NCBI RefSeq assembly: GCF_002161675.1
Contig: NZ_NFIH01000022.1
Span: forward strand, 1-42,299
DNA: 42,299 nt
From: Pseudoflavonifractor sp. An44
GTDB lineage: Bacteria; Bacillota; Clostridia; Oscillospirales; Oscillospiraceae
Direction of reading: 5' to 3'
Shown here in pieces: positions 32,882-41,989 of this stretch (within the stretch, counting starts at the first letter, position 1; the number at the start of each line of letters is the position of its first letter). The translations under genes and the position numbers were made by a program. Below the pieces are notes generated by a model. It worked only from the letters and a program-made list of their open reading frames with translations, was not told the DNA's origin and searched no databases.

Positions 32882-33658
32882 ATGTCATTTGTGAAGTTTG
32901 AAAAGCAGGGCAATGTGGCCGTTCTGACCATCGACCGTCCCGAGGCCCTCAACGCCCTGAACTCTCAGGTCCTGTGCGACCTGGACGCCGCTATCTCCCA
33001 GGTGGAGGCCGACGACGAGGTCCGTGTTGTGGTGCTCACTGGCGCTGGCCGTTCCTTCGTGGCTGGTGCTGATATCGGCGAGATGGTGAACTTCTCCGCC
33101 ATCGACGGCAAGAAGTTTGGTGTCCACGGCGGCTCCATCTTCCTGCGTCTGGAGAACCTGTCCAAGCCCGTCATCGCTGCCATCAACGGCTTCGCTCTGG
33201 GCGGCGGCTGCGAGCTGGCCATGGCCTGTGACATCCGCATTGCCTCTGAGAAGGCCAAGTTCGGCCAGCCCGAGGTGGGCCTGGGCATCACCCCCGGCTT
33301 CGGCGGCACCCAGCGTCTGCCCCGCATCGTGGGCATCTCCAAGGCTATGGAGCTGATCCTCACCGCCAAGGTCATCGGCGCTGCCGAGGCCAAGGAGATC
33401 GGCCTGGTCTCCCAGGTGTATGCTCCCGAGGAGCTGATGGACAAGGCTCTGGAGCTGGCCAACGCCATCTGCGCCAACGCCCCCATCGCCGTGTCCGAGT
33501 CCAAGCGCTGCATCCGTATGGGCATGCAGACCGACATCGCCACCGGCTCCGCTTTTGAGGCTGAGGCCTTCGGCGTGACCTGCGGCACCCAGGACAAGAA
33601 CGAGGGCATGGGCGCCTTCCTGGCCAAGCGTGCCGAGAAGAACTTCCAGAACAAGTAA
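32882..33658 (+). CDS. crt: Enoyl-CoA hydratase (crotonase)
   Basis: A 258-residue crotonase: VAVLTIDRPEALNALNSQVL-type start, AGRSFVAGADIGEM (oxyanion hole), GFALGGGCELAMACDIRIASEKAKFGQPEVGLGITPGFGGTQRLPR with the two catalytic Glu regions. It interconverts 3-hydroxybutyryl-CoA and crotonyl-CoA in butyrate formation. AAGGAGG precedes the ATG. It is first in the operon with hbd, bcd, etfB and etfA, but is separated from hbd by 508 bases of hairpins that contain two more copies of its own 3' end. Confidence 0.95.
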   Translation: MSFVKFEKQGNVAVLTIDRPEALNALNSQVLCDLDAAISQVEADDEVRVVVLTGAGRSFVAGADIGEMVNFSAIDGKKFGVHGGSIFLRLENLSKPVIAAINGFALGGGCELAMACDIRIASEKAKFGQPEVGLGITPGFGGTQRLPRIVGISKAMELILTAKVIGAAEAKEIGLVSQVYAPEELMDKALELANAICANAPIAVSESKRCIRMGMQTDIATGSAFEAEAFGVTCGTQDKNEGMGAFLAKRAEKNFQNK

Positions 33659-34112
33659 GGGCTCTCAAGAAAGTACCAAGTTCTTCCCCCATGCACTCGT
33701 GGGGCCCCGCAAGGCGGGGCGGCGCTAGCGCCGACAAGTGTTTTGGCCTGGGCCAAAACCTTGAAATCGACGGAATTGATTTCCGGCGATTTGAGTGAAA
33801 TCATGGGGTCCCCGCACGGTGTATCACACCGGGTGGGGCGGGCATGGGCGCCTTCCTGGCCAAGCGTGCCGAGAAGAACTTCCAGAACAAGTAAGCACCT
33901 CTTGGAAGGTAAGCCCTCGGCAGAGTTTCGCCGTCCGCAGACGGCGAAAGAAAATGAAATCCGTATTTTCTGAGGACATGTGCATCAGAAAATACACTTC
34001 TCAGCCCGCAAACGTGCGAGCAAGGCGAGTGCGATGCAGCGGGCTGCAATCTCCTCGAGAAAACGCTTGCGTTTTCGAGACATAGCTGAGAAGCACTTCC
34101 AGAACAAGTAAG
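33604..34112 (+). repeat. Three copies of the crt 3' end alternating with two hairpin cassettes
   Basis: Copy 1 is the gene end (33604-33659). Copy 2 (33840-33895) is identical over 56 bases. Copy 3 (34085-34112) matches the last 28 bases with two mismatches. Between them are two unrelated cassettes of 180 and 189 bases. Cassette 1 has perfect hairpins at 33704-33720, 33721-33732, 33741-33758 and 33817-33831. Cassette 2 has 10-bp perfect stems at 33926-33949 and 33963-33995, and others at 34002-34046 and 34059-34076. Each copy encodes the end of Crt (FLAKRAEKNFQNK-stop or its last residues) but no start, so nothing is translated from copies 2 and 3. Confidence 0.85.
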
Positions 34113-34166: not shown

Positions 34167-35018
34167 ATGAAGAAAGTTGTAGTCATCGGTGGCGGCACCA
34201 TGGGTCTGGACATTGCCCAAGTCTTCGCTCGCAAGGGCTTTGACGTGGTGGTCCGTGACATTAAGGACGAGATCATCCAGGCTTCCGAGGCCCGTCTGAA
34301 CAAGGGTCTGGACAAGCTGGTGGCCAAGGGCAAGATGGACGAGGCTGGCAAGCAGGCCATCCTGGACAAGATGTCCTTCACCACCGACCTGAACGCTGCT
34401 GCTGATGCTGACCTGGTGGTTGAGGCCGCCATTGAGAACCTGGAGATCAAGAAGTCCATCTTCGCTGAGCTGGACGCCATCTGCAAGCCCGAGACCATCC
34501 TGGCTTCCAACACCTCTTCCATCTCCATCACCGCCATCGCTGCCGCTACCAAGCGTCCCGACCGCTTCATCGGCATGCACTTCTTCAACCCCGCCACCGT
34601 CATGAAGCTGGTGGAGGTGATCCGCGGCGCCAACACCTCCGACGAGACCTACAAGGCCATCTATGACCTGTCCGTGGAGATCGGCAAGGAGCCCGTGGAG
34701 GTCAACGAGGCCCCCGGTTTCGTGGTCAACAAGATCCTGATCCCCATGATCAACGAGGCCTGCGACCTGCTGTACACCGGCGTTGCCACTGCTGAGGGCA
34801 TCGACACCGCCATGAAGCTGGGCGCCAACCACCCCATGGGCCCCCTGGCTCTGGGCGACCTGGTTGGTCTGGACGTGTGCCTGGCCATCATGGACACTCT
34901 GTACAATGAGACCCACGATCCCAAGTACCGCGCCTCCCTGCTGATGCGCAAGATGGTGCGCGCTGGCCACCTGGGCCGCAAGACCGGCAAGGGCTTCTTT
35001 GACTACACCAAGAAATAA
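34167..35018 (+). CDS. hbd: 3-hydroxybutyryl-CoA dehydrogenase
   Basis: A 283-residue enzyme. [30 protein letters not shown] is the NAD-binding Rossmann start (GGGTMG); [39 protein letters not shown] carries the catalytic His; [15 protein letters not shown] and [13 protein letters not shown] are the C-terminal family motifs. It reduces acetoacetyl-CoA to 3-hydroxybutyryl-CoA. GAGGAGGAAC precedes the start. Confidence 0.95.
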
Positions 35019-40744: not shown

Positions 40745-41989
40745 CTAAACAGTAGGTGGAGCGGCCACCAGATAACCTTGTCTCTGGAGGATAAAAATAG
40801 CCTCGGCTACAGAAACCTCACGGTGTACGGGAGGCCGGTCGCTCTTGCGATAGAGCTCAGAGTTGTACGGCTCGTTCTTCTTGAGCATATTGTAAATGGC
40901 GGTGAGCAGCATCCTAGCAATGGCGATAATCGCCTTCTTGTGTCCGCGGCGTTTCTTGAGAGCCAGGTAACGATTCCGGACTTCTGGGAACTGCTTGGCA
41001 CGAATGGCGCAGAGAGCGCATTGAACAAGCAACGGCTTGATGTAAGCTCCGGCCCGGCTGATTCTGGTGGTTTTCTTCTTTCCGGCACTCTCATTGTTCT
41101 GCGGCGTAAGCCCAGCCCATGAGCACAGGTGCTTCGAGGTGGGGAACACGGACATATCCACTCCGATTTCAGAAATAATGCCAATTGCGGCAAAGGATTG
41201 GATACCCGGCGCCGTCACAACAAGATTGAGTTGGGGAAGGTACTTCTCAGCGGTAGACAGAATCAGAGATTCCAGATTGAGCTTGCAAAGTTGGAGACTA
41301 CTCATGTGGGAGCGGATGATGCGGAGCTTTTCAGCCTGTTCTTCACACATCTCTCCATCCACAGCAGAGAGCACCCGTTCGTCGGTCGCTTTCATGCCTT
41401 TGGTTCGGAAGGCAGAAATATCTGTAATTTTCTCCATTGGATGTTCCAGAATCCAGGCAGTAATTGCGGAGGCTGCTTTACCAAACACATCCGAGAACAC
41501 ATCGTCCAGTTTGAAATTGGAGACTGTCAAACAGTTTTGCGCCCGGTTTTTCTCACCGGTAGTAAAGTTAGTGAGTTTCCAACGATAGCGGAACAGATCT
41601 CTAAGCTGACGGATATCTGCCGGAGGGATAAAACTCCCTGAGACAAGATCGTGCTTGAAGATGTCGGCAATCCACTTGGCGTCTCGTTTGTCGGTCTTCT
41701 TGCCCCGGATGGCCTTCACATACTTAGGGTGGGCGAGTACGATGTTGCAGGTGGGTTCCAGAATGTTGTAAACAGGAATCCAATACTTCCCGGTAGATTC
41801 CATGCACACATCCTTGCAGTTGTTCTCAGAAAGCCAATCCGCACACCGTCGTAAATCCCCAGTGAAAGTGGAAAAACGTTTGCTCTTGTAGGTTGTCACA
41901 CCCTGCTCACTGGTAGAAGCAATACAGGCAACGACAAAAGATTTGTGGATATCCATTCCACAGCAGATACGGTAGACGATTTTAAGCAT
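40745..41989 (-). CDS. IS110-family transposase (bridge-RNA-type recombinase)
   Basis: A 414-residue DEDD recombinase. The N-terminal RuvC-like domain has GMDIHKSF (Asp), CMESTGKYW (Glu) and [13 protein letters not shown] (Asp, Asp). The C-terminal Tnp20 domain has [57 protein letters not shown] with the serine-containing active segment, and [19 protein letters not shown]. It is full length and looks intact. Known biology: such recombinases use a non-coding RNA from the element's own end to pair donor and target DNA. The start ATG follows GAGGGGATGTGTT. Confidence 0.93.

Follow-up and report, generated by a model that had tools for sequence, protein, structure and literature searches.

The DNA analysed here, hereafter the window, is a stretch of 42,299 nucleotides from Pseudoflavonifractor sp. 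An44 (contig NZ_NFIH01000022.1, positions 1 to 42,299 of the forward strand). At the junction between the operon genes crt and hbd, the 3' end of crt occurs three times, and two hairpin cassettes lie between the copies. The features of this junction, numbered from the first letter of the window, are as follows.

32882-33658, + strand: crt, intact, with copy 1 as its 3' end (ORF of 258 aa; name from the initial sequence reading)
33604-33659, + strand: crt 3' end, copy 1; TAA stop at 33656-33658, followed by G
33600-33612, + strand: L, the crt segment spanning the left edge of the repeat; its reverse complement lies at 33688-33700 (12/13)
33660-33839, + strand: cassette 1 (C1 family), 180 bp, consisting of linker, RC(L) and core
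33688-33700, + strand: RC(L), the reverse complement of crt 33600-33612 with 1 mismatch
33701-33839, + strand: C1 core, with covarying hairpins; its terminal GGTGGGGC abuts copy 2
33840-33895, + strand: crt end, copy 2; 56/56 identical to copy 1
33896-34084, + strand: cassette 2 (C2 family), 189 bp; also in the relatives G006, G018 and G020
33911-34080, + strand: dispersed-repeat portion of cassette 2, found at no fewer than 40 genomic places including itself
34085-34112, + strand: crt end, copy 3; 26/28 identical to copy 2
34167-35018, + strand: hbd, the next operon gene (name from the initial sequence reading)

The triplicated crt end had been reported in a preliminary description made from the letters alone, and both its coordinates and the agreement among the copies (56/56 for copies 1 and 2, 26/28 for copy 3) proved correct. 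All three copies end one base after the stop codon. Copy 3 was identical to the crt end of the relative G018 (28/28), unlike copies 1 and 2, which indicated that alleles have been mixed at the window crt site. The repeat flanking cassette 1 had a score of 56, whereas the 99th percentile among 456 swapped flank pairs from related loci was 11.45. The R2 covariance model matched the window C1 core at 33702-33835 with 118 bits. The two cassettes had been described as sharing no obvious sequence, and our searches bore this out by retrieving a different repeat family for each. The 236-bp window insert contained no internal ORF of at least 80 aa, the overlapping ORFs running beyond the insert, and a promoter and terminator scan placed no site within the window cassettes. 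When 1,601 window bases and 8 loci were compared with known RNA families, the matches listed (5 at E up to 5 and 13 at E up to 3) were all below gathering scores. Elsewhere in the window, an ORF of 414 aa was present at 40745-41989 on the - strand, which we take to resemble an IS110-family transposase.

The junction was compared at 29 crt loci, which represent 28 genomes (one with two loci) and include six distant matches. At least one duplicated crt end was found at 8 of the 29, with its right edge 0-4 bases past the stop. The crt-hbd junction was empty in the same-genus genomes G001, G010 and G012. Cassette 2 with a single repeat of 27-29 bp, and without cassette 1, was present in G006, G018 and G020. 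A different cassette, C3, was found with a 49-53 bp repeat in G009, G044 and G040, and in G002 C3 was accompanied by a fourth cassette sequence, with a 19 bp repeat, so that four different cassette sequences were found at the crt gene end. These empty, singly filled and differently filled relatives indicated that both window cassettes are insertions. Cassette 2 is probably the older insertion in the window, because it is common to relatives, and cassette 1 is probably the younger, because copies 1 and 2 are identical at 56 of 56 bases. We also observed a recurring sequence of the GACGGTCAGGT type, and variants of it, 3' of the crt stop in G014, G053, G049 and G047 (L063, L068, L078 and L083); a duplicated gene end was sought at these four loci and none was found. 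At L066 (G019), a hairpin-rich insert of at least 500 bp was present 3' of the crt stop, and no duplicated end was found at the stop.

The C2 family was found to be an abundant composite hairpin repeat with 48 matches in the window genome, 8 of which were second pieces of the same copies. In a rough flank test, whose bounds were inexact for minus-strand and truncated loci, a flanking match with a score of at least 16 was found at 4 of 30 C2 loci; one was the window copy and two were palindromes. The same palindrome was observed on both sides at 2 of the 30 C2 loci (among L002-L052). End duplication as a general property of the C2 family was not supported, as most of the 30 loci were without a flanking duplication. 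The C3 hairpin family was likewise abundant, with matches in 38 of the 42 genus genomes, and it was present between duplicated gene ends at only a few of the 30 loci checked (L110-L139), for example L110 and L114. The remaining crt cassettes, cassette 2 included, would be further hairpin sequences that on at least one occasion entered together with a duplicated gene end.

A similarity search with cassette 1 revealed relatives in 30 of the 42 genus genomes. The C1 core is a small, structured, non-coding sequence of about 110-150 bp. Using R2, we found it in 40 of 394 sampled genomes of the order, belonging to 23 of 168 genera, in a survey in which at most 8 candidates per genome were scored under strict filters. 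Matches to a DNA pattern fell in Flavonifractor, Pseudoflavonifractor, Oscillibacter, Intestinimonas and Dysosmobacter; the first pattern gave no match, and a looser one gave at least 120 stretches, of which 80 were used. An alignment of 26 cores contained four covarying helices with 90.4% of cells paired and double changes in 20 of 28 pairs (73 double versus 10 single changes), the helices having been picked partly from the same alignment that was used for scoring. None of the slid versions of these helices approached the true register. G-U pairs were few in the core, whereas conserved RNAs are usually richer in G-U intermediates. Because of this scarcity, and because 10 single changes stand against 73 double changes, we lean towards C1 hairpins that act as DNA or undergo templated arm correction.

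Many of the fetched C1 loci sit between two copies of one gene's 3' end. A flanking direct repeat with a score of at least 16 was found at 105 of 152 core matches, compared with 1 of 456 swapped flank pairs. In a second set, which was gathered with the DNA pattern in named genomes and then with R2 and which overlapped partially with the first, 76 of 94 cores were repeat-flanked. The rows dropped were L193 (equal to the window) and four L202 rows (equal to L242) from 85 matches, one 57-base partial from 73 matches, and the partial L309 and L301 from 96. Collapsing identical sequences reduced 246 core-plus-flank sequences to 230, with orthologous sites across species counted apart. Pooled in this way, 166 of the 230 distinct cores were repeat-flanked and 64 were without a repeat of score 16; because the cores used to build R2 had flanking repeats, the repeat proportions are biased upward, while the existence of the repeats is unaffected. 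The same architecture was found in CCNA10 (AP018533.1, titled complete genome) and in other species, and an assembly artefact was rejected in kind. CCNA10 had three core rows, with a repeat score of at least 25 in two and of 21 in the third, and the isolate table that includes it comprised 19 loci chosen by name, with 22 core rows, 17 of which had a repeat score of at least 25.

To describe orientation, a locus was called sense when a frame open for at least 100 codons ended close to the upstream copy's right edge. This was the case for 116 of the 156 strongest repeats and for 103 of 770 random positions. The corresponding antisense arrangement was found at 24 of the 156, 17 of which were also sense, and a coarser measure gave the antisense frame as the longer one in 19 of the 156. 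Among the 116 sense loci, which were themselves selected with a repeat score of at least 25, the repeat measured 28-136 bp (median 63.5) and the stop codon was located at its right edge (median 0). Judging from their ends, the C1-bearing genes are presumably lepA, infB, uvrB, ilvN, tuf, fhs and others. The preliminary description had pictured a hairpin cassette that is inserted, perhaps repeatedly, with regeneration of the gene end, and had suggested a search for the same arrangement after other genes. The variously filled crt sites support that picture, and a duplicated 3' end with hairpins recurs at many other gene ends.

These distributions bear on two other explanations. The first is a replication error, in which template switching at hairpins or tandem duplication generated the repeats and the cassettes are degraded spacer. 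Template switching is typically marked by hairpins and inverted copies, and tandem C1 units were present at some sites, showing that a filled site can be reused or amplified; however, the core is conserved and dispersed in 23 of 168 genera, at many unrelated genes and with the same ends and orientation, and the empty sites show clean insertion, so we consider a replication error highly improbable. The conserved, dispersed core and the empty sites likewise contradict a plain tandem duplication with a gradually diverged spacer, which the preliminary description had named as the outcome that would overturn its reading. With regard to the mechanisms it had listed, slippage alone fails to explain the dispersed core, while target duplication fits in part.

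The second is a MITE-like non-autonomous transposon moved by a transposase whose staggered cut is unusually long and variable, in which the repeat is a plain target duplication, only stop-preserving insertions survive, and RC(L), the inverted segment in front of the core, is produced by snap-back repair at the hairpin end. We regard this explanation as rather unlikely, although several observations are in line with it: the flanking repeats are as expected of a target duplication, mismatch-free copies occur in the window (56/56) and elsewhere, and the few one-sided pair changes (10 versus 73 double) suggest DNA hairpins. Variable duplications, of 3-26 bp, are also described for the YPAL/RU-2 element in the accessible part of its report (PMC2229807). 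A MITE-like transposon would nevertheless leave the sense bias unexplained, as an antisense insertion would preserve the gene equally well.

Between the stop codon and the core, we found RC(L), whose sequence is complementary to the part of the gene at the repeat's left edge. Of the 116 sense loci, 99 were usable for this comparison, having at least 12 nt from stop to core and enough upstream sequence. RC(L) with a score of at least 9 was present at 72 of the 99, compared with 4 of 396 control windows from the same loci, and was absent at that score from 27. At 65 of the 72 RC(L) loci, the paired segment began outside the repeat, 2-8 nt upstream of its left edge, and it mostly extended 5-16 nt into the repeat. 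The pairing thus spans the repeat edge, which places the junction inside the RC(L)/L pairing. In a smaller first test, the mean score was 12.3, as opposed to 5.7-5.8 in windows 50-150 bp upstream, and 12 of 35 loci exceeded the 99th percentile of swapped edge-insert pairs, a null contaminated by loci of the same gene. RC(L) fits the two copies about equally: of the discordant bases, 15 agree with the gene end before the core (copy A), 12 with the one after it (copy B) and 4 with neither. In the predicted fold of the window RNA, RC(L) pairs with the 3' part of the element itself and not with L. We infer that, by pairing with L, RC(L) guides the core to a cut inside L, where it is joined. The MITE-like explanation meets a second difficulty here, as RC(L) covers bases upstream of the repeat edge that a simple snap-back from a nick would not copy.

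Comparison of the two gene ends provided information on their origin. Mismatches between copy A and copy B were distributed over the codon positions as 63/40/328, and 321 codons differed synonymously versus 69 that did not; no loci were excluded by hand from this codon count, whereas a separate codon comparison left out eleven loci by hand (repeats of the same place and tandem arrays). The ORF of copy B ended within 9 nt of the end of copy A in 105 of 116 loci. The mainly synonymous differences and the preserved ORF end of copy B indicated that copy B is not a leftover that decayed after insertion. An enrichment of AT in copy A, suspected by eye, was not supported overall (142 versus 127). The uvrB gene is the only locus that could be polarised. 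Set against the uninterrupted G044 allele, copy B of G002 had 2 differences in 78 bases and copy A had 13 in 78, and the flanks of the two genomes showed 6/120 and 7/100 differences; in this comparison of sequences, the downstream copy B was shown to be the older allele. In the uvrB of G020, the end upstream of the core reads QIIQLKGKEK and the downstream one (D)QIIRLKEKD; the downstream end is as in the empty G001 allele, and the upstream end is nearer to G040 and G003. The uvrB copies of G000 look mosaic by eye. Copies 1 and 2 of the window are identical and provide no evidence on allele exchange. The synonymous differences, together with the uvrB polarisation in that one gene, suggest that a separate version of the gene end comes with the insert or is exchanged by it, and we conclude that the gene end before the core often appears to arrive with the cassette or to be exchanged with it. 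Neither the synonymous differences between copies nor the ancestral copy B of uvrB is explained by a MITE-like transposon unless gene conversion follows.

Divergence was also compared between pairs of loci at the same gene. In yhbY-like pairs the core diverged by 0.8-1.6% and the gene by 3.5-6.6%, and between the uvrB loci of G041 and G002 the core diverged by 2.3% and the gene by 10.8%. In other same-gene pairs, the divergence of the core equalled or exceeded that of the gene, in some reaching the between-gene level (38.6% mean), which indicated independent insertions or great age. Universal recent transfer was not supported, as a core clearly less diverged than its gene was confined to some yhbY-, uvrB- and lepA-like pairs. 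Cores at least as diverged as the gene were found at many genes, so that vertical descent or independent insertion may underlie much of the distribution; vertical descent, transfer and re-insertion may all contribute.

On balance, we somewhat favour the view that cassette 1 belongs to a family of mobile elements, small and non-coding, that are located at gene 3' ends in the sense orientation. The inserted unit would comprise a gene end through the stop codon, then RC(L), then a core of about 110-150 bp made of hairpins, and its entry point would lie within the coding sequence, about 30-130 bp upstream of the stop. The original end of the host gene would be displaced downstream as the leftover copy, and the gene would then finish on the copy preceding the core. 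Pairing of RC(L) with L would steer the joining of the core to a cut within L, the reaction would depend on a trans-acting enzyme encoded elsewhere, and the unit could move among related strains in the manner of a homing allele, replacing the gene end. We read the element as a putative mobile cassette of a new, non-coding kind whose insertion is based on complementarity to the target. A more specific 'home and rescue' version, in which a structured transcript with RC(L) as its 5' segment guides a trans-acting nuclease or recombinase into a housekeeping gene, and in which the cassette supplies the replacement 3' end that lets this gene survive and spreads selfishly among related gut bacteria, seems to us unlikely. 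A strong objection to the favoured view is that copy A keeps L intact, so that an RC(L)-guided nuclease would still cut the filled allele.

Alternatively, an mRNA tail made up of gene end, RC(L) and core could have been inserted by target-primed reverse transcription with a reverse transcriptase acting in trans. The sense orientation, the variable repeat length and the combination of gene end and structured segment in one unit would all be accounted for, and SINEs have variable target duplications. However, a reverse transcriptase domain was found in 25 of 42 genus genomes and in neither of the element-carrying G006 and G040 (both drafts, whose elements may be inherited), and G-U pairs are few in the core, so we consider this route quite improbable. 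The IscB RRXRR domain was found in 3 of 42 genus genomes, with 1 over the cut-off, and Y1 transposase in 16 of 42 but in none of G018, G006 and G040 (drafts in which the elements may be inherited). G006 and G040 had no match to reverse transcriptase, IscB or Y1, yet G006 has repeat-flanked cores, and in G040 a core was judged by eye to lie between two copies of the uvrB end. The presence of IscB and Y1 did not track the element, that of reverse transcriptase did not clearly do so in these draft genomes, and all three were unsupported as sole drivers. The HEARO RNA fold gave no match in 1,601 window bases and 8 loci. At G000:C44:22756-22995 (L188), we observed a weak RRXRR match to a 1369-codon open frame; this frame is of Cas9 size, and we presume that G000 encodes a CRISPR effector.

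If the proposed element is real, it would represent a widespread class of mobile DNA in gut Clostridia that is invisible to gene annotation. Such protein-free mobile DNA would keep the host gene whole yet rewrite gene 3' ends, and it would direct attention to the mobilising enzyme, to target choice by base pairing, and to the influence on the 3' UTRs of core operons such as that for butyrate.

No element of this build was found in our searches of the open PMC literature, and judged against that literature we rate the element as categorically new. Genomic islands and ICEs in gene 3' ends restore the gene end and push the old one downstream, but each of these spans kilobases, codes for a site-specific integrase and is limited to a single target. 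The C1 element similarly restores the gene end (116/156 by the sense criterion), whereas its core is short, has no ORF inside and is found at many target genes. IS200/IS605 and REP/RAYT elements have hairpins and a hairpin-side guide that pairs with the cleavage site, and their small forms are protein-free; unlike C1, they have a short fixed target motif and no gene-end copy. In IscB/HEARO and homing elements, the guide is located at the 5' side of a structured RNA and spread is homing-like. The C1 junction resembles that of IscB/HEARO in lying a few nt inside the paired segment, in contrast to which the filled C1 allele retains its target. Homing elements carry their own repair; C1 differs from them, and from the gene-end-restoring islands, in being protein-free with many targets. 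Some members of the IS1202 family have long direct repeats, and the family is 1.5 kb long with a transposase, whereas C1 has no ORF and repeats of 28-136 bp. The family is reported to insert target-specifically and in one orientation, which is similar to C1 (PMC10132070). In Yersinia, YPAL/RU-2 is a palindromic element of about 168 bp with internal inverted repeats and both filled and empty sites; its duplications reach only 3-26 bp, compared with 28-136 bp for C1, and the accessible part of the report makes no mention of restored gene ends or a target-matched inverted copy (PMC2229807). YPAL/RU-2 is the nearest described element found, and it shares with C1 its small size, non-coding and palindromic nature, variable direct repeats and occurrence of empty and filled sites (PMC2229807).
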